Source: an uncultured Clostridia bacterium
GTDB lineage: Bacteria > Bacillota > Clostridia > UBA1381
DNA: 64,000 bases
Assembly (NCBI GenBank): GCA_944392335.1
Contig: CALXWJ010000017.1
Coordinates: 1-64,000 of the forward strand
Direction of reading: 5' to 3'
Notes under the pieces: model-generated
What the model saw: the letters and a program-made list of their open reading frames with translations, nothing else
What the model was told of the DNA's origin: nothing
Database searches by the model: none
Program-made: the position numbers and the translations under genes
Shown: one piece after another, positions 11,388 to 64,000 of the stretch
How the letters are laid out: every line of letters starts with the position of its first letter
Numbering within the stretch: the stretch's first letter is position 1

Positions 11388-11533
11388 CCGATCACCTCGC
11401 TATACCGTAAATATCACAACATAACCTTTTCAATTATTACCGTACATTAAAAATTATATTATAAATTTTCAATTATGTCAAGTGACATGTTTTTAATATT
11501 CGTAAAATCGCTTAAAAAATATGAGTTTATTTA

Positions 11534-51192: not shown

Positions 51193-51771
51193 TCAGCACA
51201 GTACCGGCTGGAATTGTTTTCCATCCAAAGCTGCTTTTACAGTATCCTGGATTTTTGACATGTCTGCAACAAGGGAATTTGGTTTTTTTACATAATCATC
51301 CTGCCCAAAGGGGACAAAATACAGATTTTTATAATTTAACAAGGCTCCTATATTCTTTGCGGCATTTCCAAGTCCGTCATTTGTCGACACGGCAATAACA
51401 AGAGGTTTCTGATTCCTCAGATGCGCCTTAGCCGCCATTGTTACCGAACTGTCCGCAATTCCCAACGCAAGTTTTGCAAGAGTATTCCCGGTACACGGAG
51501 CAATTATCAGCACATCAAGATAACCCTTTGGCCCTATCGGTTCTGATTCTTTAATCGTCTTTATTATCTCATTGCCCGTGATTTCTTTTATTTTACTGCA
51601 AAAATCATTTGCTTCTCCGAATCTTGTGTCGGTGGAGAATGCTGTTTCACTCATAATCGGATAAATGACCGCGCCGGTATGTGAAAGCTCTTCCAGCTCT
51701 TTTAAAACCTTTTTAAAGGTACAAAACGATCCGCACAATGCAAAACCTATTTTTTTATCGGTTAACTCCAA
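51193..51771 (-). CDS. spoVFB: Dipicolinate synthase subunit B
   Basis: The 192-residue flavoprotein-like subunit belongs to the Dfp/flavoprotein family and makes dipicolinic acid with subunit A in the mother cell during late sporulation. Seen are IGFALCGSFCTFKKVL, IIAPCTGNTLAKLALGIADS and PLVIAVSTNDGLG. The start is TTG at 51771 behind GAGGGGGTG, which lies at the end of the spoVFA remnant, 3 bp after its stop. Mother-cell sigma K control is known for the family; no promoter was identified here. Its partner gene is split by a mobile element. Confidence 0.93.
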   Translation of the reverse strand: MELTDKKIGFALCGSFCTFKKVLKELEELSHTGAVIYPIMSETAFSTDTRFGEANDFCSKIKEITGNEIIKTIKESEPIGPKGYLDVLIIAPCTGNTLAKLALGIADSSVTMAAKAHLRNQKPLVIAVSTNDGLGNAAKNIGALLNYKNLYFVPFGQDDYVKKPNSLVADMSKIQDTVKAALDGKQFQPVLC

Positions 51772-51774
51772 ATC

Positions 51775-51855
51775 CTACACCCCCTCTTCAGCAATTATGT
51801 TGACAACGGTATCTTTAATTATTTTCCCTGATGTTATCGGGGCTACTCTTCCCGG
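51775..51855 (-). pseudogene. spoVFA: 3' remnant of spoVFA (dipicolinate synthase subunit A), interrupted
   Basis: On the minus strand, an open frame of 26 codons ends with TAG at 51775-51777 and reads PGRVAPITSGKIIKD then TVVNIIAEEGV. Its content and place, directly ahead of spoVFB with 3 bp between, fit the C-terminus of SpoVFA (DpaA). An in-frame TAA at 51856-51858 marks where coding ends. The serine recombinase begins 28 bp further on. The N-terminal part of about 270 codons is missing from this site and should be looked for beyond the right end of the element. Identity was inferred from gene order and a short tail only. Confidence 0.72.
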
Positions 51856-51882
51856 TTAGATTGTTATAAGTTGAAAATAAAA

Positions 51883-53403
51883 TTAATAAAAAATAAAATC
51901 GGCAGTTCTGCCCTCTAATACGATTTCTTGTATAACCTCTTTTGCAATCTTCTTTTTTGTTTCAATTGTAAAGTCTTGCCAGCCGGTTAAAATATAATCA
52001 ATATCAAAATTCAGCGAACTTGCTTTGTTCGCTTTTAATTCCTGTTTTGCGATTTCCTCTAAAATTTTATTTTTTTCACTATCCAACTTTTCTATATGCT
52101 GATTCAAGTATGATACACTAATATCGGAACCTTCTGCGATACTTTCGATAATATTATTTATTTTCTTGTCAATATTTGCAATCTGAATTTTAAGCTCATT
52201 TATTTCGGGAGTATCACGAACAACCTCAACGCTTTTTAACTCCTTTAATTCTTCAAGTCTTGATAAAATCTCTGCTTCTGCAATTTCTTCCAAGTCTTTG
52301 ACCGCAAGCATGGTTTTAGGATATGGACAAGAGTTGTTTTTTCTGCCTCTGCAATATAAATATTTATATTCCTTAACACTATTTTTATTTTTGTGTTTTT
52401 TAACATAATATGTATATCCGCATTTGCATTTTACCAAGCCTTGAAGCCATGATAAGCTCCCTGTTCCAAGATTGGAATGATTTTTCTTCTTGTTAATCAA
52501 ACCTTGCACATTCAGCCATAATGAAGGTTCTATAATTCCTTCATGCAGTCCCAATGATACAAAATCATTTTTTAAATTTGTAAATTTTGAACCTTTTCTT
52601 TTTTCCGTAGTTCCGTAAACATAACAGCCATATTTTCCGATATAATCTTCAACAGGATTTGTCATTGTTCCGCCAAGTCCTTGAAGATAATTGTATATAT
52701 CTGCATTAGCTTTTACATATACAGGATTTTTGAGCATTCTTGCGATAGCGGTTTCACACCATGGTCTGTTTCTTTTTGAAATGACCTTATCATTATTAAG
52801 GCCTCTCGCAATTTCACTCATACTTTTTCCATTGATGTAGTCATTAAATATTTTTAAAAGAATCTTGCTTTCGTCTTTGTTTTCTTCAAATGTATATGTT
52901 TTAAGACCGTTTACGGTTGTTTCAATCTTATTATATCCAAATGGAGCGGGTCCGCCTAAATAAAAGCCTTTTTCACCTCTTGCATAATAGTTATCTTTTA
53001 TTCTTTGCTGTATATTCTCTCGTTCCATTTCTGCAAACATCATAAGAATATTTAAAATCATTTTTCCCATTTGTGTAGATGTGTCAAAATCTTCGGAACA
53101 GGAAACTAATTTTACTCCGTATTTTGAAAAATCTTGCTGCATTGATAAAAAATCAATCAGAGAACGGCTGATTCTATCAAACTTATAGATTATAATTTTA
53201 GAAACAATCCCTTTTCTGACTTCATTCATCATTTCTTGAAATTGTGGTCTGTCTGTTGATTTTCCCGAATATCCTTTATCATAAAAAATGCTGAAATTCT
53301 CAGTATCAAGCTTCTTTTTACAATCGTTGATTTGAGTTTCAATGCTGATACTGTCTCTTTTGTCAACCGATTGCCTTGCATAAATAACTTCAATTTTGTT
53401 CAT
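51883..53403 (-). CDS. Large serine recombinase (integrase/excisionase)
   Basis: The 506-residue enzyme has the N-terminal resolvase domain with catalytic Ser12 in IYARQSVDKRDS, IIYKFDRISRS and MMFAEMERENIQQR. A recombinase domain (PAPFGYNKIE...), a zinc ribbon (CKCGYTYYVKK..., CRGRKNNSCPYP) and a C-terminal coiled coil follow. Such enzymes integrate and excise phages and elements by a double-strand break and rotation. The ATG at 53403 fits AGGAGA; an in-frame extension of 24 residues has no site. It is transcribed toward the spoVFA junction, with its stop 27 bp inside the boundary. Confidence 0.95.
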   Translation of the reverse strand: MNKIEVIYARQSVDKRDSISIETQINDCKKKLDTENFSIFYDKGYSGKSTDRPQFQEMMNEVRKGIVSKIIIYKFDRISRSLIDFLSMQQDFSKYGVKLVSCSEDFDTSTQMGKMILNILMMFAEMERENIQQRIKDNYYARGEKGFYLGGPAPFGYNKIETTVNGLKTYTFEENKDESKILLKIFNDYINGKSMSEIARGLNNDKVISKRNRPWCETAIARMLKNPVYVKANADIYNYLQGLGGTMTNPVEDYIGKYGCYVYGTTEKRKGSKFTNLKNDFVSLGLHEGIIEPSLWLNVQGLINKKKNHSNLGTGSLSWLQGLVKCKCGYTYYVKKHKNKNSVKEYKYLYCRGRKNNSCPYPKTMLAVKDLEEIAEAEILSRLEELKELKSVEVVRDTPEINELKIQIANIDKKINNIIESIAEGSDISVSYLNQHIEKLDSEKNKILEEIAKQELKANKASSLNFDIDYILTGWQDFTIETKKKIAKEVIQEIVLEGRTADFIFY

Positions 53404-53421
53404 CTTCATTCTCCTATATAA

Positions 53422-53459
53422 ATAGTGCGGCAATCCAATATGACTGATTACCGCACTAT
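53422..53459. terminator. Hairpin upstream of the recombinase
   Basis: Arms ATAGTGCGG-CAAT (53422-53434) and ATTA-CCGCACTAT (53447-53459) have a 12-nt loop. It lies between the small gene at 53465 and the recombinase, so it may lower read-through into the recombinase or act as an RNA control element. Confidence 0.6.
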
Positions 53460-53464
53460 AATTC

Positions 53465-53698
53465 TTACGATACACTTTTTTGAATAACTCGTATTATACG
53501 GTCTTTAATCTCTGTGTTTCGTTTTTCTTTTTGGGTTTTATTCAGTTTTGGAATATGAATCTTGACTGTTACCCCGTTTTTTACATATTCTTTGTACAAT
53601 TCATATACTTCCTGCTGCTTTGTATGTTGCTGAATCGTTTGTTTATCGCAACTGATATATGCCTTGTCTTGTGTTTGGCATAAAGTATCAGACAGCAT
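53465..53698 (-). CDS. Small basic protein of unknown function
   Basis: The 77-residue protein is rich in Lys and Gln, with QTIQQHTKQQEVYELYKEYV and KIHIPKLNKTQKEKRN. No domain is recognised. AAAGGAG before the ATG at 53698 supports translation. It lies 61 bp before the recombinase on the same strand, a position where recombination directionality factors or regulators are found, but that role is only a guess. Confidence 0.6.
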   Translation of the reverse strand: MLSDTLCQTQDKAYISCDKQTIQQHTKQQEVYELYKEYVKNGVTVKIHIPKLNKTQKEKRNTEIKDRIIRVIQKSVS

Positions 53699-53828
53699 TT
53701 TTACTCCTTTCATGATATTTTACAAGCCTTACTTTTCAAAGCTGTGTATGCGATTATAATACACAACTTTGAAAAAGTAAACGGCATAAATTTATTTTTT
53801 ATAAATTGTATTATTATTTGTGCTTGTC

Positions 53829-54419
53829 TTATTCATTTAATTTGTTTTTCATATTAAGCGTTTGCATTAAACCATTAAATAATGCCTCATGCCTATCCGA
53901 AACCCAATACTCATATACACAATAATAGGTATTATCTTTTCCCTTATCAAGGATTAGTCTTTCCCAGTCTTTTTTATAGTTCAATTTTTCGAGCCACCAT
54001 AAAGCGTCTCCATATTGCATACGCTGTCTGAAAGTAAAACCATTTTTTCTTTTGTTGATTCGCTTTCTCATATAACCGGTTGCTCCGTTTTTTCCACTCC
54101 TAAGAATCAACGTTATTCCTTCTTGGGTTATTTCCATTATAACAATATCATATTTATCAATTTTAAGAATTGATTTTTCTCTGATATGTGGACAGCCTTC
54201 TCTGACGGTTATGATTTCACCATCCTGACCTTCCATTTCTATTAATTTCCCATGTCTTTCTTTATCTGCTGTTTTTGCGTACTTAAGATTTTTTGCGAGC
54301 ATTTCTTCATTTTCTCCTTTTTTCATTTCAAATAATTTGTTAATTAAATTCTTGGTTTCTGTTTTGATAACTGTGTTATTTTCATTTGTCATAATCTCTA
54401 TGTTATTTTCTTTTATCAT
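53829..54419 (-). CDS. Hypothetical protein of the mobile element
   Basis: The 196-residue protein is charged, with a lysine-rich helical N-terminal half and a C-terminal domain containing GCPHIREKSILKIDKYDIVIME and FRQRMQYGDALWWLEKLNYKKDW. No family is recognised. AAAGGAAAG lies upstream of the start. It is part of a same-strand row with the small genes around it. Confidence 0.65.
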   Translation of the reverse strand: MIKENNIEIMTNENNTVIKTETKNLINKLFEMKKGENEEMLAKNLKYAKTADKERHGKLIEMEGQDGEIITVREGCPHIREKSILKIDKYDIVIMEITQEGITLILRSGKNGATGYMRKRINKRKNGFTFRQRMQYGDALWWLEKLNYKKDWERLILDKGKDNTYYCVYEYWVSDRHEALFNGLMQTLNMKNKLNE

Positions 54420-54474
54420 AATTTCTACTTTCCTTTCAGTACTTGAAATTTTTAAATAAATATAATTTTTTCGT

Positions 54475-54789
54475 TTATTGTCTTTTCCATGTTTCTGTTA
54501 TTGTAACAGCTAATAGCATAGGTCCTATAGAGCATTCGCCAATATCAGAATCACAGAAAACATAATTTTTACTTTTTAAATAATCAACGGCTTCTTCATA
54601 GGAACAAGTTTTTATTTTGTTAAAATCTTCTTCTAAATAACCAAGTGTTATATCATGTATGGGTGCAGAACCTATGCGTAATGGTATGAATAGAATGGCA
54701 GTATCGTATTTTTTATAAATAGTTGTAACGTCTGTGGGGTTAGCGTGATAGTTATTATTAGCTTTGTTTATAATATTATTTTTTTTCAT
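54475..54789 (-). CDS. Hypothetical protein of the mobile element
   Basis: The 104-residue protein has a predicted alpha/beta pattern with TAILFIPLRIGSAPIHDITLGYL and DYLKSKNYVFCDSDIGECSIGPMLL. No known family is seen. The ATG at 54789 follows AAAGGAGA. Function is unknown. Confidence 0.62.
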   Translation of the reverse strand: MKKNNIINKANNNYHANPTDVTTIYKKYDTAILFIPLRIGSAPIHDITLGYLEEDFNKIKTCSYEEAVDYLKSKNYVFCDSDIGECSIGPMLLAVTITETWKRQ

Positions 54790-54990
54790 TTTTAATAAAT
54801 CTCCTTTTAACATTTAAATTTTTTGATTGTTTAGAAAATATTGGGTGGCTCGCCGCTTATATACAAGCGTATTAAATGCATAATAAAACACTCCTTGTTT
54901 CTATATGATTTTATATCATTATCAGCCATTTAAAACCATGCATAGGTATTATTATATTGATAAAGGGAACGCATAAAATAACTATATTTT

Positions 54991-55779
54991 TTATGGTTTT
55001 ATATACTGTTCATATGCTGTTTTCCAACAACCATAAACTTCACCGTCATTTTGATTTACGGCTACGTACTCGTTTTCAGCAGAATAAGTTTTAACCATAT
55101 TATCAGGCTTACAATTCTTATATTTATCTCTGCTTTTTTTGATTTTCATATCCTTTGAATGTCCATATATCTTTAAATACGGAGGATAATAAATAAGTCG
55201 TGATATTTTGTTTTCAAATCTTGTAATGTCAAAATAAAACGGCAATGTTGCAATATTGGATGGAGTTTTTACAGCTACTTCATGACCATGCAACCATAAA
55301 TCGCAGACAGTTTCAACTGTGATATTAAACAGCTTTTCATCTAATCTCTTTATAAGAGAATGTATATGCCATGAACCGTTTTCTTGTGGCTCTTTAACAT
55401 AAAAATATCTGCACTTACAATATCTTCTTTCCAGTTTCTGCATGAACTTTTTAAAATCATATGACAGCCTATATGGATCTTCCATTTTTGAAGAATAAGT
55501 CAGCGTGATAAACTTCTCTGTAGAATCACCGTCAAAATATCCTCTAATTAATCTTGGAACATTTTTAAAATCTCTTTTAAAGTTATCAATAGACTTGCTG
55601 TGTGAATATTTATATTCTTTTATCTCGTTAGTAGTGTTATCTACATATTGCGTCTGACTCAATTTTGTTACTTTAACTTGCTGGGTTTCTTGTCTACAGC
55701 AAATAATTTCTCTGTATTTGCCGCTATAATATACGGTTACCAATTCATCATCCTTAATTAATTTATTATCAATTTGCAT
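54991..55779 (-). CDS. HUH endonuclease, rolling-circle Rep-like replication protein
   Basis: The 262-residue protein has a rolling-circle replication initiator core: motif 1 FITLTYS (90-96), motif 2 GSWHIHSL with the HUH histidines 138 and 140, and tyrosines in the 200-220 region (IYYPPYLKIYG) for motif 3. Such enzymes nick one strand at an origin and become linked to it by tyrosine. It resembles ORF2/G2P-type proteins of clostridial mobile elements. The flanking noncoding DNA contains two strong inverted repeats. No helicase or primase is adjacent. Confidence 0.82.
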   Translation of the reverse strand: MQIDNKLIKDDELVTVYYSGKYREIICCRQETQQVKVTKLSQTQYVDNTTNEIKEYKYSHSKSIDNFKRDFKNVPRLIRGYFDGDSTEKFITLTYSSKMEDPYRLSYDFKKFMQKLERRYCKCRYFYVKEPQENGSWHIHSLIKRLDEKLFNITVETVCDLWLHGHEVAVKTPSNIATLPFYFDITRFENKISRLIYYPPYLKIYGHSKDMKIKKSRDKYKNCKPDNMVKTYSAENEYVAVNQNDGEVYGCWKTAYEQYIKP

Positions 55780-55827
55780 ATTTTTTTATCTCCTACAATT
55801 ATAAAATATTCTTGATGTGTCCATATT

Positions 55828-55915
55828 AATTAAAATATGAATATTTTAATTTGGAATACAAATGATATGTATTCACAGACAATAATTCTTTATTTTAGCT
55901 CTATTAAAGAATTAT
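55828..55915. repeat. Two inverted repeats upstream of rep (possible origin or operator)
   Basis: One perfect palindrome has 11-bp arms AATTAAAATAT (55828-55838) and ATATTTTAATT (55841-55851). The second has arms ATAATTCTTTA (55882-55892) and TAAAGAATTAT (55905-55915). Both lie in the 357-bp gap between the rep gene (-) and the DUF6076-like gene (+). The gap has no other gene. Confidence 0.6.
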
Positions 55916-56136
55916 ATTTGCTTTTTGTTTATCACCTCCGTTATGTATTGTCATAAAATTTCAACATTCTCCTTTCTGTATGCACCATTAATTGCGTCCA
56001 TATAATCGTGCAGACTCTTTATCAGATAATTATCTTATAAATCTATTATAGCAAAAAAATATATTAAAAGATATTGCTTTTTTTCCTTTTTTTTGATAAA
56101 ATAAAATAACGGAAAAATACTTTAGAGGGTGATAAT

Positions 56137-57147
56137 ATGGATAATAAATATGGTATATCAGAAAGTGCCTGTTACTTATTCGAATATAGTTTTGATGTGG
56201 GAGTAAAAACAGAAGCGTTAAAAATAATCAATGGTGATTATATTGAGAGTGACACTTATATTGCAAGACATTTTATTGATTATTTTTTATTTAGTTATTA
56301 TCGCATAGGGAAACATTTGGGTTGTGAGCCGTTTAAAAATCCATTTCAAAAACCGTATGATGATTTTGGGGCAGCTCCTGTATTAAAACAGCTGTTAAAA
56401 AATGCTTTGTGTGCAGATAACAGAGAAAAAACTAAAATTTATTTTGAAAATATAGCACTTCTTCTTAAAAATAAGGAATGTCATAACGAGAAAGCATTAA
56501 AATGTTTGTGTGAATTTATGAATGTAAAAATGCCAGAATATGAAAGCGATTTAATAAATGACATTCCAATTGAACTATATGCTAATCAAGACAACAATCA
56601 TTGGTTTAACTATTTAAAAGAGAATACTAAACCGATAAAGAGAAAACATAAGCCGATTATAGCGGAAGGCAATGTAGGATTTGATAATGTTAATATAGTA
56701 TATAAAATCAATTCACTTTTAGATTTATGGTTAGCGAGTTTGTATATATTGTTTAATCTTAATGGAACAATAAAAATTTGTAGGAATTGCGGTAAACCGT
56801 TTGTATTATATAACCAGAAAAATAGGGTTTACTGCTCGGACAATAATAGTAACTGCGTACAAGAGGGCAGAAAAGCAAGGGAACGTGAGCGTTATAATAG
56901 TGTTCATATCAAATTGTATAAAAATATTCGTATGAAACTTAAATATAAGGGGGATACATGTTTAGATACTGTTTCTTCGATTAATGAATGGGAACAACTG
57001 GCAAAAAAATTTTCAGAAAAGTATAAAGATTATAAAAAAAAGAAAATATCTGATGATAAAATTATAGAATGGCTTAAATCTGTAGATATGCAGTATAAGA
57101 ATCATAAAAATACTGTTTTTGAATTGCCTGATATAGAGAAAGAATGA
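56137..57147 (+). CDS. DUF6076-like protein with CGNR-type zinc finger
   Basis: The 336-residue protein is mainly helical and has a zinc-binding segment ICRNCGKPF...YCSD...C at about residues 215-242, followed by EGRKARERERYN. This finger resembles the CGNR and DUF6076 families, which occur in mobile elements and toxin or regulator proteins. The C-terminal part is lysine-rich. The start ATG follows AGAGGGTG. It is transcribed away from the rep gene. Its function is not known. Confidence 0.65.
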   Translation: MDNKYGISESACYLFEYSFDVGVKTEALKIINGDYIESDTYIARHFIDYFLFSYYRIGKHLGCEPFKNPFQKPYDDFGAAPVLKQLLKNALCADNREKTKIYFENIALLLKNKECHNEKALKCLCEFMNVKMPEYESDLINDIPIELYANQDNNHWFNYLKENTKPIKRKHKPIIAEGNVGFDNVNIVYKINSLLDLWLASLYILFNLNGTIKICRNCGKPFVLYNQKNRVYCSDNNSNCVQEGRKARERERYNSVHIKLYKNIRMKLKYKGDTCLDTVSSINEWEQLAKKFSEKYKDYKKKKISDDKIIEWLKSVDMQYKNHKNTVFELPDIEKE

Positions 57148-57369
57148 GTGCATCCAAATAAAATATAAATATAAAAAATTTTGAGGCAAGCTGCTTATGG
57201 TAAAATAGTTAAAGCATTACAACATAATCTACTCCTGATAATTCCTAACCGTGCTGAGATGTCATATTTTGACTTAGGTTTATTCTTTTTAACAAACCTA
57301 TATAATCTTAATATTTGGTATAAAAAGTTTCTTAGAATTACAATCTGTAATGAAAAGAGGTAATACCCT

Positions 57370-57561
57370 ATGAATGAAACAAGCTGTAATGAAAAATCTT
57401 TTGCTACTGATGTTATATTTGCAAAAGATGTAATAAAAGATATGATAGACTCCATACATGATTATTGTCCGAGTGATTACCATATGCTTTTACCCACGCT
57501 TCATAAAGCATATGATTGCATGACACTAATACAATTTTATTTAAGAGATATTGCACAGTAA
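57370..57561 (+). CDS. Small protein of unknown function
   Basis: The 63-residue protein is helical, with DVIFAKDVIKDMIDSIHDYC and HMLLPTLHKAYDCMTLIQFYL. AAGAGG lies about 10 nt before the ATG. It follows the DUF6076-like gene on the same strand by 222 bp; that interval shows no other gene. It has no recognised family. Confidence 0.5.
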   Translation: MNETSCNEKSFATDVIFAKDVIKDMIDSIHDYCPSDYHMLLPTLHKAYDCMTLIQFYLRDIAQ

Positions 57562-57909
57562 CCATTACCAGAGTGTCTGAGCAACCTTAGAATAAACTTT
57601 TTTTTATTCTATAATATAAATTAATAACTTAAAAATATTACATAAGATGAGGGATTTTTCTATGCTTTGAAAAAGAGAAAATCCCCTGTTTTATGTAAAT
57701 CTCATTTTGGATTATATAATATAATATTATATCAAAATCCGTATTCATGTAAAGGCTAAAATGCATGATAAAATCCACCTTGACAGAAATACGGATTGTT
57801 GATTTTTTTTGTATTTACATAACATGTGTTTTAATTCTTACATAAAAGTGGAATAGTTCCATCATAAGATGAAATTGCTTTATTTTATGTAGTAATATAA
57901 ATACATCAT
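57562..57909. other. Structured noncoding interval with repeated TTACATAA motifs
   Basis: This 348-bp gap has a long inverted repeat built from TTACATAAGATGAGGGATTTT and AAAATCCCCTGTTTTATGTAA (57638-57698). Another pair, AATCCGTATT (about 57737) and AATACGGATT (about 57787), also lies here. TTACATAA or its complement occurs at 57638, 57689, 57815, 57838 and 57883. The repeated motif suggests protein binding, a small RNA or origin function. No ORF is supported. Confidence 0.5.
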
Positions 57910-58092
57910 TTATGGTTTTGGCTTTACAGAATTACTGCTACCACAAGACGGACAAACATTACTGTTTGCTTTTGTTTTATCCAAGTGAGGATATTTCCCT
58001 GCTTTTAAACAGTAATTACACCACGAAGCACCGCATTTTTCACAATAGAACATATTTGCTCCCGATGTTTTACATAATTGACAGTATGCCAT
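57910..58092 (-). CDS. Small zinc-ribbon protein
   Basis: The 60-residue protein has three CxxC or C..C pairs: CQLC, CEKCGASWCNYC and CPSCGSS, giving two zinc sites. AAGGAG precedes the ATG. It lies 47 bp after the TIR gene and is probably the last gene of the same operon. Such ribbons often mediate protein contacts. Confidence 0.75.
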   Translation of the reverse strand: MAYCQLCKTSGANMFYCEKCGASWCNYCLKAGKYPHLDKTKANSNVCPSCGSSNSVKPKP

Positions 58093-58139
58093 AATTTCAA
58101 CTCCTTAAAATTTATCATTATATTTTGTATTTTTATTTA

Positions 58140-60308
58140 TTATGGTTTCATTATAAAGGCATAATCATAACCATCGTATGTATCATCAATAGAGGTATTA
58201 AGTTCTCTTATATATGCGTTACATCCATTTATTTTGAAAATCAGATAGCCGTCTCCATATTCTTTTCTTTCAAAATTACCAAGTTTATTCTTCAAGTCAG
58301 TTTCAGTCCTAGGTCCATTATAATCTATTGTCATAGAGTTAAATATATCGGCTAATTTCATAGCACAGCCAATCACATTATTTTGCTTGTCAAATAAGAT
58401 AAGTGTATAGCTTTCATCTAAAACCCGTCCACATTTTTCGAACTTCAAATAACCAGATATATCATAGATATCTCGATTATTTGAGATATATCCCGCACCT
58501 ACATTATCCATACTGAAAAGGTTTTTTGAATCGGATTTGATTTTTTCCACTGATGGATTGTTTTTAAGCATAGTAGTTATATAATCAACAGAACTAAATC
58601 TGGCTTTAACCGTACTAATCTTTGAAATTGTATTCCCTGAAACCATACTTAAAATTATTGCTATGGTAACACCAATGGCAGTAACCATCTTGGACTTTTT
58701 CTTTGATTTTTCTACTTTTTTATTTAATTCAATTTCAAATTCTTTTTCGTTATCAAGCGTTGTTTTTATGTATGCTTTAAAATTAGGTGTTGAGAACAAA
58801 AGCATCGGAACAATTATCACAGCAGTTAAAGCAAGTAAAAATATGCTAAAAAATCCGACATCAAACGTACTGTCTCCATAATTAAGGACTTTGGCACCTA
58901 TAATTATAGCAACTATAGCAAATACAAAGAATATTGCAAATTGGATACATAAAAACTTTTTATATTCTGTTTTATTAGCTTTAACAACATTTATAATATA
59001 GTTTTGAAATGCTTGTTTTTTTTCGTTTTTTTCACGCAGCTCTTTTTCCATTTGTTTGAACTTGTTTAACGAAGATGTATTATATTCTTCCAATCTTTGT
59101 TTTAATTCATTATCAGCAAATCGTAATGCTTTTTTATAGTTTGAGGAATTACTGAAATCAATAGCCCGATTAGCAAGATTTTGTTCTCGGTTCACACTAA
59201 CCTCAATCATTAATTTTCCTATATAAGCTTTTACATTTTCAGGTTCAATATTTAACACTTTTTCCAACAAATCATTAGCTTTTGTCCATTCAGCTTCTTC
59301 CAAAAACATAAAAGCACGTTTTAGCATGGATTCTGATTCTGCCTTATAATCCCGAACTGATTGAATAGGCTGAAAAACTGTTGTTTTTGGGGGTTCGTTT
59401 TTGTTGTTAAGTATTTTTTTAATACCACGAATTAAATCCTGTAAAAAGCCGATTTTGTTCATATCTTGACTTTGAAACATAGATAATTCATCGGGTAAAT
59501 CATAAGCGTCCATATCCTTATAGCAGGGAATGATAACTTTATTTTTATCTTTTCTTGAAAGTGCTAAAAATCTTGACCACTCATTCTTTACCCATACCGC
59601 ATTAAAATTATCTTTTTTAGTACCGACAACAAGCATAACTTTTGAAGAATTAAGAGCAGAAAAGATATAAGGCTCATATTCTTGTCCTAACTTATCTTCA
59701 AGCGTTATTCTTGAAAAGAATACTTTATACCCCTCGTTTACCAACTGCGAATAAATATCCTGTGCAAGCACACTATCCATCGTACGCTTACCGCTGTTGT
59801 CTGTTTCCTTATAGCATATAAAAATATCATATGCTTCTTCGCTATCAGCAACCGAAAGTATATTTTTTTGTATCTCTGCTATTTTTTCAGCTTCATTTGT
59901 ATATAATTTTTCAGCGTCATAATCTAAAGCATATTTAAGAGCCGATTTATAATCTAAATCTGATAATATTGATTCATGCTGTAATCTATGACAAGTCGGA
60001 ATCCGTTTATGTGTCTTAGGGTCTTCTACATATTCTATACCATACTTAGATAATACAAGTCCCCAATATGCTTCTGCATTCTCATTGTCTTCCTCTAATA
60101 TACTTTCATATGTAGCAATGGCCTTATCAAACTCATTTTGTTGTCTGTAGTGCGTTGCTCTATTGAATAAATTGAGAACACGCTCGTCATTCGCTTTAGG
60201 TAATGTCATTGTACTGCCGCATGAATCACAAGTACCTATATTTTGCCCTTCTACGGCTTCAAGATTACCACCGCACATCTTACATTTAAATACTGCCAAA
60301 CTAGTCAC
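58140..60308 (-). CDS. Zinc ribbon-TPR-TIR-TPR membrane protein
   Basis: The 722-residue protein has, in order: an N-terminal zinc ribbon (CKMCGG...CDSCGS, 9-30), TPR-like helices (45-85), a TIR domain (about 158-290), a second TPR pair (about 325-400), a coiled coil (405-435), three membrane helices (about 452-471, 485-505, 541-557) and a C-terminal soluble domain. In the TIR, YDIFICYKE starts the fold, and E212 in GQEYEPYIF lies where catalytic Glu sits in SARM1-like NADases. It may be a NAD-consuming effector or a scaffold. It follows a small zinc-ribbon protein and an SPFH protein in one operon. Confidence 0.85.
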   Translation of the reverse strand: MTSLAVFKCKMCGGNLEAVEGQNIGTCDSCGSTMTLPKANDERVLNLFNRATHYRQQNEFDKAIATYESILEEDNENAEAYWGLVLSKYGIEYVEDPKTHKRIPTCHRLQHESILSDLDYKSALKYALDYDAEKLYTNEAEKIAEIQKNILSVADSEEAYDIFICYKETDNSGKRTMDSVLAQDIYSQLVNEGYKVFFSRITLEDKLGQEYEPYIFSALNSSKVMLVVGTKKDNFNAVWVKNEWSRFLALSRKDKNKVIIPCYKDMDAYDLPDELSMFQSQDMNKIGFLQDLIRGIKKILNNKNEPPKTTVFQPIQSVRDYKAESESMLKRAFMFLEEAEWTKANDLLEKVLNIEPENVKAYIGKLMIEVSVNREQNLANRAIDFSNSSNYKKALRFADNELKQRLEEYNTSSLNKFKQMEKELREKNEKKQAFQNYIINVVKANKTEYKKFLCIQFAIFFVFAIVAIIIGAKVLNYGDSTFDVGFFSIFLLALTAVIIVPMLLFSTPNFKAYIKTTLDNEKEFEIELNKKVEKSKKKSKMVTAIGVTIAIILSMVSGNTISKISTVKARFSSVDYITTMLKNNPSVEKIKSDSKNLFSMDNVGAGYISNNRDIYDISGYLKFEKCGRVLDESYTLILFDKQNNVIGCAMKLADIFNSMTIDYNGPRTETDLKNKLGNFERKEYGDGYLIFKINGCNAYIRELNTSIDDTYDGYDYAFIMKP

Positions 60309-60364
60309 CCCTTATGAATTCTTATTTGGTATTTCTGCGATAACGTTTAAAATTTCCATATTCT

Positions 60365-60748
60365 TTATGATTCTTTTGCTTTTTTATAAATAACAGTATT
60401 CTCTAACATAATTTCATTTAGCTTGTCGCAAACAACATATACTTGCATATGTTCCATGGCAGATTTTATATTCTTCATTGACTTATATTCAAAGATTTCA
60501 TATATCTTGTGTTCTTTGCCGTTGTCGAAAATAAGTATATCATCTAAGGTAAGCTGGGTTTGAGTTTCTCCGACTAACATACTCTTATCCGTTTTTCCTA
60601 TTTGAGAATTGTTAGATGAACCTGTAATGCGTAATGCGGGTTCTAAAACTTCATCTCTTCTCAAGGCTTTTCCGCATTTCTCACATATAAATATTTTGCC
60701 GTCTTTTTTTAGGTTTCCTATACAAAAATTGCATTTTAATGTTGTCAT
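60365..60748 (-). CDS. Zinc-ribbon protein of the SPFH/TIR operon
   Basis: The 127-residue protein has an N-terminal zinc ribbon CNFCIGN...CEKCGKALRRDE (5-25) and a C-terminal domain of about 80 residues without known family (DDILIFDNGKEHKIYEIFEYKSM). It lies between the TIR gene (56 bp) and the small membrane protein (17 bp). AAGGAG precedes the start. It may connect the other parts of the system. Confidence 0.75.
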   Translation of the reverse strand: MTTLKCNFCIGNLKKDGKIFICEKCGKALRRDEVLEPALRITGSSNNSQIGKTDKSMLVGETQTQLTLDDILIFDNGKEHKIYEIFEYKSMKNIKSAMEHMQVYVVCDKLNEIMLENTVIYKKAKES

Positions 60749-60765
60749 AACAGTTACTCCTTATT

Positions 60766-61203
60766 TTAATTCCAATATGTAGATTTTTCTTTTTCAAATT
60801 CTCTGTGTTTTTCTTCTGCTTTTGTATCAATTTTTTCTATATATTCATTCCCTGCATTTAAAGCTATAGCACGAATAACAAATACCGCTAAAATTGCTAT
60901 ATGTACTACTACGGTTATCAAAACAGGAAAATGCTTATAATAGACTATAATACATGCTATAACCGAAACAACTGTACTTACTACTGCGTATGTTACAGCA
61001 GTATAAATATAAGCAAATGCTTGCGGTGCCTTATTATTACCCTTTCCATACACGTAAAGACTTAAAGCTATACTGCCTATTGCTATAAGTGAAAAAATAT
61101 GTGATACCACAAATGTGGCTGTTATCGGTACTACTAAATACAATAATGACACTACAACAGCCGCAATCACAGAGCATAAAATAATTCTTATATTATTATT
61201 CAT
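60766..61203 (-). CDS. Small membrane protein of the SPFH/TIR operon
   Basis: The protein of about 145 residues has four membrane helices (roughly residues 7-29, 33-52, 63-87 and 92-113) and a charged C-terminal tail (KIDTKAEEKHREFEKEK). The ATG at 61203 overlaps the stop of the SPFH gene, so they are coupled; ATG at 61209 or GTG at 61212 are alternatives. No family is recognised. Confidence 0.72.
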   Translation of the reverse strand: MNNNIRIILCSVIAAVVVSLLYLVVPITATFVVSHIFSLIAIGSIALSLYVYGKGNNKAPQAFAYIYTAVTYAVVSTVVSVIACIIVYYKHFPVLITVVVHIAILAVFVIRAIALNAGNEYIEKIDTKAEEKHREFEKEKSTYWN

Positions 61204-62455
61204 TTTCATCACCGCCTAACTTATATCCACATTCAAGACAAAATTTTGCACCATGTGGAATTTCATTACCGCATTTAGGGCAAGTAAGTTGTAATTTGTT
61301 TCCACACTCCATGCAGAATTTGCCTTTAGGTGTTTTCTTTCCACAATGCGGGCAAATCATTTCATTATCAGATAATAATTCTATTTTTGTACCACACTCT
61401 AAACAGAACTTTGCATTTTGGGGTACAGTGTTACCACATTTAGGACAGGTAACATTTTTATTATTTATCTGCTGTGAATTTACAGCGTTTCCTATACTAT
61501 CATTAACAAGACCACCGACAGTACCGCCAACACCTGCCATAACACCAAGTCCTATACCGAGATTAGACATATTTCCGCTTCCCTCATTACCTGCAACAGT
61601 TTGTGCAACATCAAATCCACGTTCCTGTTGATAGGTATAGCCTTCTATATTTCGTTTCTGTGCCAACCCCTCTGCTTCAAGTATCATTTTTTGCTTTTCT
61701 GTTTCTTGCTCAATAATGCTGACACTTTGCTGTAGTCTCGCTTCTGCAATATCAGCATATTGTCTGAAGTGAATTTCTTTAAATCTCTTATAGATTCTAT
61801 CTTCTTCGGGTTTAACTATTGTTGTTACAAAAAAGTGTACAAGAGATACTCCGTATTCATCAAAGTCGGGAATAAGCATATCTTGTAAATCATTTGAAAT
61901 TTCTGTTAAATATTCATCTATCTGAAAAATGTTGATTTTATTTGTTCTGATATAGGTTGACAGATAGGTTTTGAACTTAGTCATTAAAAATGCTCTAAAT
62001 TTTTGTGTTAAACCAATCTGTGTCAATCCGTTTTCAGTACCTATAACTTTTACAAGCAGTTTCTTACCGTCTTTAACTCTTAAAGTCATTTCACCGCTTG
62101 CACCAATCTGAATAGGAAAGTTATATGTAGGCTCTACATATTCAACCTTACTGTCTGTACCCCATTTAACAGCCATTTGCTCTGTTTTATTGACAAAATA
62201 TACTTCACAATGAAAAGGCGTTTTATCATTAAATGACTTGTTGTAGAATTTATTGATTAATGGTATATTTTGTGTTTCTAATGTATGTCTGCCTGCTTCA
62301 AATACGTCTAAAATCTGACCGTTCATATAGAATACAGCTTGTTGTGACTCGTGCACTATAAGCTGTGTTTGAGTATTAAAATCTTCAATAGGTGACTTCC
62401 ATATAAATGTTGTATTGTCACCCTCATACTTGATAATTTGTGCTATATCAGCCAT
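61196..62455 (-). CDS. SPFH/band-7 protein with three zinc ribbons (YdjI/virion-core type)
   Basis: The 419-residue protein has an SPFH-like core (about 20-225: IVHESQQAVFYMNGQ, NKINIFQIDEYL, FDEYGVSLVHFFVTTI), a coiled helix (225-275), a Gly-rich linker (290-325) and three zinc ribbons (337-354, 368-384, 392-409; CPKCG...FCLECG). It resembles YdjI of Bacillus subtilis and the viral 'virion core' family. SPFH proteins form membrane platforms, and YdjGHI in Bacillus recruit PspA upon membrane stress. It leads the operon, behind a consensus promoter and a divergent RHH gene. Confidence 0.85.
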   Translation of the reverse strand: MADIAQIIKYEGDNTTFIWKSPIEDFNTQTQLIVHESQQAVFYMNGQILDVFEAGRHTLETQNIPLINKFYNKSFNDKTPFHCEVYFVNKTEQMAVKWGTDSKVEYVEPTYNFPIQIGASGEMTLRVKDGKKLLVKVIGTENGLTQIGLTQKFRAFLMTKFKTYLSTYIRTNKINIFQIDEYLTEISNDLQDMLIPDFDEYGVSLVHFFVTTIVKPEEDRIYKRFKEIHFRQYADIAEARLQQSVSIIEQETEKQKMILEAEGLAQKRNIEGYTYQQERGFDVAQTVAGNEGSGNMSNLGIGLGVMAGVGGTVGGLVNDSIGNAVNSQQINNKNVTCPKCGNTVPQNAKFCLECGTKIELLSDNEMICPHCGKKTPKGKFCMECGNKLQLTCPKCGNEIPHGAKFCLECGYKLGGDENE

Positions 62456-62491
62456 ATTTTCACCACCTTTTATATTTTTTTGTTTTTTTAC

Positions 62492-62520
62492 ATTTTATCA
62501 CATATAAACACATTTGTCAA
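62492..62520 (-). promoter_or_regulatory. Sigma-A promoter of the SPFH/TIR operon
   Basis: On the minus strand TTGACA (62520-62515), a 17-bp spacer and TAAAAT (62497-62492) lie about 37 bp before the SPFH start. Confidence 0.9.
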
Positions 62521-62523
62521 CTG

Positions 62524-62589
62524 CAATTTGCACGCAATGTTAAGTTACATAAAATATGTATATGATTTTACACAATTTGCATATATAAT
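62524..62589 (+). promoter_or_regulatory. Divergent regulatory region of the RHH gene
   Basis: The region holds direct repeats of CAATTTGCA (62524-62532 and 62573-62581), a TTACATAAAA motif (62545-62554) and the -10 box TATAAT (62584-62589) of the RHH gene. The same TTACATAAAA motif recurs in 57562-57909. It is a likely operator for the small RHH protein and, by overlap, may control the SPFH operon. Confidence 0.5.
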
Positions 62590-62610
62590 ATAGTTGAAGG
62601 AGTTGATTAC

Positions 62611-62799
62611 ATGTTTAAAGTACGTCATACGGAAGAAACAACAAACAGGACATTTCGATTTCCAAAATCATTACTTGATAAAATGTCTGTTATTGCTCAA
62701 AGAGAAAACGTATCATTAAACAGCTTTGTTGTTCAATGCTGTGAATATGCTATGAGTAACTTTCAAGAGTCAGATAACGAAAAAGAAACAGACAACTAA
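62611..62799 (+). CDS. Ribbon-helix-helix (CopG/Arc-like) DNA-binding protein
   Basis: The 62-residue protein has a ribbon-helix-helix pattern: the beta strand RTFRFPKSL, helix LLDKMSVIAQREN, turn VSLNSF and helix VVQCCEYAMSNF. Such proteins bind operators as dimers, mostly as repressors. GAAGGAG lies before the ATG. It is divergent from the SPFH operon and shares the intergenic region with it. It may be autoregulatory. Confidence 0.82.
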   Translation: MFKVRHTEETTNRTFRFPKSLLDKMSVIAQRENVSLNSFVVQCCEYAMSNFQESDNEKETDN

Positions 62800-62814
62800 G
62801 GTCTGTTTCGGTTT
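62785..62814 (+). terminator. Terminator overlapping the end of the RHH gene
   Basis: Stem GAAACAGAC (62785-62793) / GTCTGTTTC (62801-62809), with a 7-nt loop and then GGTTTCT. The 5' arm lies in the last codons of the gene. Confidence 0.8.
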
Positions 62815-62827
62815 CTAAAGAGCCTGA

Positions 62828-63595
62828 CTAACTTCTTCTATATATCTCTTTTGACAATGGAATAGTCTTTTCAATACACTCATATTGATTTTTTGCTGTG
62901 ATTTTAAATTCAACGGAAATTTCATCATAGTTGTTTTCAATGATTGTATTTCCAAAGGAATCTATAATACCAATGCCGTTTTCGCTTTCAGCAATATTGC
63001 AGATATTACGCTGATTTATTACTATGGATTCATTTATAGGATATTGATAATATGTATATCCGTTTTTCTCAGGATAAAGAAACATACTGTATCTTGCGTC
63101 ATAGAACACAGCACCCTTATCTGTATCACCGTAATAAACATAACAAGATTCATTATATGTATTATATTTTCTTTTGTAAATGATTTCTCCTGTTTCTTCA
63201 TAAATAATATATTGATATTCTTTATCATAACAATACATATAAGGCATATCAACTGTTATTTCATCAAAATCCATTATTTTACCCGTTACTGAATTATAAT
63301 ACCTTGTTCCGCAGTCATTACTAAAAAACAAATTGTGGTTAATATTATCAACAATATCATATTCACATCTGCAAAGTATGTCTGCATGATTTTCTTCTAC
63401 TTTGCACATGCCTATTTTACCGTTTTTGTATAAAATAAATGTGTTAATGCCATACAGAAAAATGTTGTCATATTCTTCATTGATAATATGAGTATTATCA
63501 TTACTGTTTATAATCCCGTATTTCTCATTATGTACTATTTTTAAATTATCTGATGTATTGTTGCCAAAAACTCTGTTTCTTACCGTATAAAGCAT
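62828..63595 (-). CDS. WG-repeat-like beta-repeat protein
   Basis: The 255-residue protein is built of short repeats of the WG type, such as KYGIINSNDNTHIINEEYDNI (first part) and GIGIIDSFGNTIIENNYDEI near the end, with other weaker ones between. The repeats form beta-hairpins in related proteins and are probable protein-interaction modules. No signal peptide is seen, so it should be cytoplasmic. It lies 16 bp after the recombinase stop and may be in the same transcript. Function is unknown. Confidence 0.68.
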   Translation of the reverse strand: MLYTVRNRVFGNNTSDNLKIVHNEKYGIINSNDNTHIINEEYDNIFLYGINTFILYKNGKIGMCKVEENHADILCRCEYDIVDNINHNLFFSNDCGTRYYNSVTGKIMDFDEITVDMPYMYCYDKEYQYIIYEETGEIIYKRKYNTYNESCYVYYGDTDKGAVFYDARYSMFLYPEKNGYTYYQYPINESIVINQRNICNIAESENGIGIIDSFGNTIIENNYDEISVEFKITAKNQYECIEKTIPLSKEIYRRS

Positions 63596-63611
63596 ATTAA
63601 TTCTTCTTTCT

Positions 63612-64000
63612 TTATAAATTTACTGCATTATAGCAATCTGTAATGACTTCTTTTGTGATACCGATATATCGTAGTGTTATTGCACTTGATGAGTGATTTA
63701 ACATTTTTTGCAATGTCTCAATGGGTACATTATTTTGGTATCTGTGAAAAGCCATTGTTTTTCTTAACGAATGAGTACCGTAATTACCCTTTATCCCTAA
63801 ATCTCTTAATGTAGTTTTGATAATATGATGAAGCGGTCTTACTCCAAGGTGTGTACCTTTTCTGCTCTTAAATAAATAATCGTTCAAATCTATACTTGAA
63901 GATGTGCTTAAATATAGCTTAATAGCTTCTTTGGCACTTTTATTTAAATTAAAGGTTTTCTTCTTATCTGTTTTTTGCTCCTTGATAGTAACTTCATCAA
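63612..64000 (-). CDS. Tyrosine recombinase/phage integrase, C-terminal part, cut by window edge
   Basis: The frame is open to the window edge on the minus strand (129 residues seen). It has the catalytic end of the family: GTHSLRKTMAFHRYQNN (HxLR), QKMLNHSSSAITLRYIGIT (second His and nucleophile Tyr). The first catalytic Arg lies outside the window. The start is not visible, so the TTG at 63887 is not the true start. It is a second recombinase on the element, of a different family from the serine recombinase. Confidence 0.9.
   Translation of the reverse strand, partial: DEVTIKEQKTDKKKTFNLNKSAKEAIKLYLSTSSSIDLNDYLFKSRKGTHLGVRPLHHIIKTTLRDLGIKGNYGTHSLRKTMAFHRYQNNVPIETLQKMLNHSSSAITLRYIGITKEVITDCYNAVNL

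Follow-up and report, generated by a model that had tools for sequence, protein, structure and literature searches.

The dipicolinate synthase gene spoVFA is split by a serine-recombinase element in a Clostridia bacterium and is probably rejoined during sporulation

The gene spoVFA (dpaA) is split in the genome of an uncultured gut-type clostridium by a 13.9-kb element with a large serine recombinase, and about one third of the relatives carry insertions at three fixed spots of the same gene, which makes it very probable that spoVFA is cut and rejoined in sporulation. The intervening sequence is probably a skin-type element that would be excised in the mother cell, rejoining spoVFA at sporulation; we infer the excision, its timing and the directionality factor from sequence. 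Dipicolinic acid (DPA) is the molecule that gives spores their heat resistance. The window, i.e. the whole stretch of DNA analyzed, consists of bases 1-64000 of a 108,251-base contig, and the assembly of 3.64 Mb in 99 contigs.

The sequence-only reading had taken the 26 codons before spoVFB for the C-terminus of SpoVFA, and the comparisons bear this out. The tail (PGRVAPITSGKIIKDTVVNIIAEEGV; coding 51778-51855 on the minus strand, stop 51775-51777) adjoins spoVFB, matched the DpaA profile with 33 bits over positions 264-288, and is in all its 26 residues the end of the intact DpaA of genome G002, which belongs to the same genus. The same reading correctly saw a large serine recombinase just past the tail (gap 27 bp) but placed the end of the tail at 51856, one base off (51855). 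The tail cannot function by itself, since a TAA immediately precedes it in frame and it has no usable start codon. The 5' part was found where it had been expected, beyond position 64000 and in the same orientation, as a 266-codon open frame at contig positions 65720-66520, just outside the window. When the assembly was searched with TIGR02853, the family model of DpaA, a single match resulted, to this frame (contig 65726-66514, model positions 2-269 of 287), and thus no second spoVFA, also as anticipated. The frame ends ...WALSLPGKVIS, the final codons being element sequence already. A sigma-K-type promoter, AC-N17-CATAATATA, is present upstream of spoVFA at contig 66561-66588, and the element separates spoVFB from it.

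Table 1. Features of the split spoVFA region and its element (window positions unless marked as contig positions).
Feature	Position	Strand	Basis or remark
spoVFB (dpaB), intact	51193..51771	-	TIGR02852, 268.9 bits at 51199-51756
spoVFA 3' part, last 26 codons and stop	51775..51855	-	26/26 residues identical to G002 DpaA
Attachment core CCGGG, near junction	51851..51855	-	by eye; G002 empty site and symmetry centre
Intervening element, 13,885 bp in total	51851..64000, onward to contig 65740	.	both cores
attP arm ATAAGTTGAAAA	51866..51877	+	perfect 12-bp inverted repeat with arm at other element end
Large serine recombinase (integrase/excisionase)	51883..53403	-	PF00239, PF07508, PF13408; phrog_95 integrase, 1.4e-104
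Imperfect inverted repeat, 12-bp arms, one mismatch	53424..53457	.	by eye, between small ORF and recombinase
Small protein directly upstream of recombinase	53465..53713	-	similar, like-placed ORFs in G008, G034, L035, L036
Sigma-A-type promoter TTTACT-17-TATAAT	53753..53781	-	10/12 matches, consensus only; upstream of small ORF and recombinase
Rolling-circle replication initiator-like protein (cargo)	54991..55779	-	PF23343, 4.5e-13; phrog_3419
Protein weakly like DUF6076 (cargo)	56137..57147	+	E 3e-4, under Pfam cut-off
TIR and TPR protein (cargo)	58140..60308	-	PF13676, 7.3e-11
SPFH/Band 7 protein with zinc ribbons (cargo)	61196..62455	-	PF13421, 3.5e-38
Tyrosine recombinase (cargo)	63612..64000; whole gene contig 63612-64199	-	PF00589, 1.6e-26

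The insertion point lies in the codons for LPG(R/K)V, 26 codons ahead of the spoVFA stop, and the minus-strand junctions read CTTCCGGGGAAGGTGATAAG on the 5' side and CTAACCGGGAAGAGTAGCC on the 3' side. The short core repeat predicted for both ends is CCGGG, and its second copy at contig 65736-65740 sets the length of the element together with the near copy. When the flanks were joined at CCGGG they gave a single 286-codon DpaA frame without a stop, which scored 423 bits over positions 1-288 of a profile built from intact relatives, where the 5' part without the tail scored 381. The joined DpaA, with a query differing from it at residue 6 (T for A), aligned with the B. subtilis structure 2RIR over 5-283; it fell below the strict TIGR02853 cut-off, as did the proteins of all genomes of the order. 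The spoVFA of G002 is uninterrupted and encodes a protein with 83% identity to the joined DpaA; its empty site reads CTTCCGGGAAGAGT / CTTCCGGGAAGAGTTGCACC, which is exactly the attB predicted from the join (CTTCCGGGAAGAGTAGCC). The claim that a mobile element splits spoVFA was thus sustained, the integration being precise and the joined layout that of the G002 empty site.

The rebuilt attP (AATCTAACCGGGGAAGGTG) has perfect 12-bp arms, TTTTCAACTTAT and the arm listed in Table 1, and showed two-fold symmetry at 18 of 23 positions a side, a value matched by none of 500 shuffles. The attB was not symmetric (just 9/23). The symmetry centre of attP is a CC dinucleotide, and the independent element of G008 is centred on the same CC. 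A five-base core by itself would be weak evidence; the core is fixed by the G002 empty site, the attP symmetry and the G008 centre taken together. An automated search for the longest match had proposed an A+T core for this junction, which was rejected as spurious in favour of the CCGGG given by the empty site and the symmetry centre. A long symmetric attP, a different attB and a short core are as in large serine integrases. As in skin-type elements, a coding sequence is interrupted with its parts in order and orientation, joining at the core restores the frame, and a serine recombinase lies near the attachment site.

The recombinase gene, ending at 51883, 27 bp from the spoVFA tail, encodes Resolvase, Recombinase and Zn_ribbon_recom domains. 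Many of the elements have a small ORF directly upstream of the recombinase, family-specific in sequence: the site-A ORFs (53465-53713, G008, G034, L035 and L036) share a (G/M)(F/I/V)TVK-like motif, and the site-C ORF has 40 residues, MELTRRQRREI..YRRGIIKELYARSRLTREEYRRLITK. The ORF in the window had no significant Pfam family and is, judged from its sequence and position, the best candidate for a recombination directionality factor. The inverted repeat between it and the recombinase is possibly an attenuator or operator; it gave no terminator score. The cargo also includes a SocA/Panacea protein. No PADLOC model matched in the element, the TIR-TPR protein included. No phage structural or lysis genes were present among the element proteins scanned with Pfam and PHROG, and no relative of the recombinase was found among the IMG/VR viral contigs. 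By gene content the element resembles a plasmid-like or island-like one. The term skin-type, used in the sequence-only reading, is right for the layout and likely right for the behaviour. The element is not a prophage, as no phage structural gene was found. Other elements carried other cargo: the 4-kb site-B element of G014 has a glmS-like gene with GATase and SIS domains (L045 4050-5876), and the 3.2-kb site-A element of G008 a sodium/calcium exchanger (L043 1014-2009). Calcium pairs with DPA in spores.

In a survey of 95 genomes of the order, 76 had a real spoVFA, full-length in 51 and interrupted in 25. Both halves were on one contig in 14 of these 25 (G000, G008, G014, G017, G025, G027, G034, G037, G042, G048, G071, G073, G074, G075), by which an artefact of contig ends is ruled out; in the rest, either the pieces break off at the same sites but lie on separate contigs, or a single piece was found. 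RecA, examined as a control in the same 95 genomes, showed no same-contig split and was broken only at contig ends, and sigK appears intact in the relatives examined. The insertions fall at three sites. Site A, near profile position 264 (LPGKV), is occupied in this window, G008, G034 and G083, and by the second insertion of G025 and G041. Site B lies near position 246 (KPGGVDF), with shared cores up to CCGGCGGGGTGGATTTT, and site C near position 133 (NAVPTA), with shared cores up to CAACGCCGTACCTACGGCG. Joining at the cores restored the DpaA frame in most pairs, the automated join being unconvincing for a few (e.g. G070, L040). Seven genomes had two insertions in one spoVFA, at sites C and B in G070, G073, G074, G075 and G024 and at sites B and A in G025 and G041, with a middle piece of roughly 22 codons left between the elements of G025. 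The site-A split was also present on the public contigs MSHC01000023.1, JAFQLH010000004.1, CASEVP010000007.1 and CANQWA010000006.1, and its 3' side on JAKJBW010000003.1. Two genomes from outside the order are split as well: G344 at site C, with the pieces on one contig, and G198 at site B, with the pieces on two. In G034 the spoVFA tail (L042 13212-13334, and L102) lacks an adjoining spoVFB; that gene is found on a different contig, with no tail upstream of it.

A large serine recombinase was present in every same-contig case of split spoVFA. The recombinase tree placed those of site B in one branch (12 rows, support 100/100) and those of sites A and C in separate deep branches, the clades thus being site-specific. 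The recombinases of the order that share 54% identity or more with that of the window (G000, G008, G034, G041, G025) are all at spoVFA site A, and those 35-38% identical are among genes resembling other mobile elements, away from spoVFA. The closest recombinase in named genomes (L033 3333-4838) shows 65% identity and comes from a contig labelled Gastranaerophilales, owing to either contamination or transfer.

The site-C insertion was common to five sister species and is probably ancestral, since the divergence of the recombinases (dS 0.23-0.64) keeps pace with that of the host gene. All gene pieces in these species showed dN/dS of 0-0.11, i.e. strong purifying selection, and the 46-codon tails of four sister species were conserved to the same degree. 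Of 22 interrupted spoVFA genes, 17 had a sigma-K-type box at most 150 bp upstream, the rate in shuffled sequence being 4%. Together with the RecA and sigK controls, the low dN/dS and the retained boxes argue that the pieces still serve as a single gene. It is quite improbable that an ordinary integrative element has disabled spoVFA in a host on its way to losing DPA synthesis or sporulation, with the halves left to decay. G001 and G002 of the same genus have spoVFA intact, so that the window's insertion may be of recent date, and the excised circle (attP) was absent from the own assembly, where a rare form would hardly be expected; both would suit a disabling insertion. Against it, the sister species sharing an insertion have kept their pieces open under the selection described while the element diverged, sigma-K boxes are retained, spoIVA, sigK and spoVAD persist in this genome, and the decay would have to be under way in one third of the order at once. 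As the window's own insertion may be young, the argument from long-term selection rests on the other insertion sites.

It is also very unlikely that the split gene works without excision, either as a 266-residue DpaA lacking its last turn or, where the split is near position 133, as two separately translated halves, even though the 5' piece retains most of the profile (381 of 423 bits) and the site-C break falls between the two halves of the protein. The tail, with no start of its own and a stop upstream, nevertheless differs from that of G002 by 9 synonymous and 0 nonsynonymous changes over 25 codons, its motif LPGxVAPxTAGxI also occurs in 2RIR, the solved structure of B. subtilis DpaA, and the longer tails of the sister species are conserved as well.

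According to the preferred reading, in which spoVFA is rejoined by excision, the 13.9-kb element has integrated at the LPG(R/K)V codons, and at sporulation the recombinase, presumably with a directionality factor, would excise it in the mother cell. This would rejoin spoVFA and reconnect spoVFB, otherwise 13.9 kb away from the sigma-K-type promoter, so that DPA synthesis becomes possible; the forespore would retain the element, which would thus be inherited. Neither the recombinase nor the small ORF showed a convincing sigma-E or sigma-K promoter, and sigma-E-like boxes within the element were scattered and unpersuasive. The sigma-A-like recombinase promoter does not speak against the model, as in C. 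difficile the skin recombinase is likewise transcribed by sigma-A, and a directionality factor under sigma-E control confines it to the mother cell (PMC5025042). A reversible excision not tied to the mother cell, as a population switch or mobile-element cycle giving a fraction of cells an intact gene, would agree with that promoter and with yin in yabG, both excised and integrated at all time points (PMC10747680), but it is highly improbable given that the promoter is not decisive and that the commonest targets are mother-cell genes.

Those targets are spoVFA, spoVFB and spoIVA, the most frequently interrupted genes here. All three are mother-cell genes in B. subtilis, and spoVAD is a forespore gene. 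Interruptions of spoVFB near profile position 155 were seen in G073 C12 (L064, L065), G074 (L073, L088), G017 (L057, L087) and G006 C11 (L085, L086), the rebuilt sites of G074 and G017 having arms AAATTGTAT and ATACAATTT; in G073 the spoVFB element comes on top of the two in spoVFA. L035 and L036 were rejected as insertions at a spoVFA site, as spoVFA is intact in L036 and the element in both cuts spoVFB at about codon 15; their recombinases, ending near 11521, are related to the site-A family. Near profile position 403, spoIVA was split in G026 C91 (L075) and G009 C8 (L076), by 12-13 kb elements with serine recombinases and cores ATACATAT or TATACATATGATG, and also in G008, G041, G013, G052 and G058. 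In G063 (C8:10739-12212) spoIVA consists of two overlapping frames with no insert between them, probably a frameshift. The forespore genes had been expected to be spared, but this rule is not clean, since spoVAD of G060 is in two pieces near position 200 on two contigs, C148 (L082) and C1 (L083), one of them beside a serine recombinase. No convincing core was found for these pieces, and no same-contig split of spoVAD was detected.

It seems somewhat probable that in this order of Clostridia-like gut bacteria late sporulation genes are as a rule kept in two or three parts, with a separate serine-recombinase element and target site for each gap, and that up to three separate excisions put the DPA operon together in the mother cell (G073). 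If so, gene assembly would be a standing developmental step of the lineage and not a rare phage accident. Only a handful of programmed gene rearrangements in sporulation are known, most of them in Bacillus. With spoVFA hit so repeatedly, one can test what leads mobile elements to settle in mother-cell genes, and also whether they gate DPA production. With the gene in pieces, annotation of such spore-former genomes will falsely report that DPA synthesis is lacking.

The interrupted genes named in the papers found are sigK, spsM, spoVFB, spoVR, gerE and yabG (PMC10747680, PMC4191935, PMC5025042, PMC5595907). No published interruption of spoVFA was found in the open-access papers searched, which agrees with the earlier suggestion of a new target, although a report elsewhere is possible. 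The nearest case is vfbin in spoVFB of Bacillus weihenstephanensis KBAB4, in the papers citing it a serine-recombinase element excised in sporulation (PMC10747680, PMC4191935, PMC5025042). As described there, it likewise lies inside a mother-cell DPA synthase gene of the same operon and pathway, but its target is the neighbouring subunit gene and it is phage-like, whereas the present element has no phage structural genes and belongs to a different bacterial order. With skin in sigK of B. subtilis and C. difficile the element shares a large serine recombinase, a precise split in one orientation and a join restoring the frame, and by analogy excision in the mother cell would be expected; unlike with skin, the gene split is that of a late enzyme, at any of three sites and sometimes twice, in relatives whose sigK appears intact. 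Also gin in gerE of B. cereus ATCC 10987 is a gene-intervening element and not a prophage (PMC5595907), and the content of the present element is nearer to gin than to skin, though target, cargo and host differ. The elements yin (yabG), vrin (spoVR) and SP-beta (spsM) are likewise insertions in sporulation genes with a serine recombinase, but with other targets and each reported as single insertions (PMC10747680, PMC4191935). The kind of element is known; the spoVFA target, the three sites per gene, the double insertions and their frequency are new to us.
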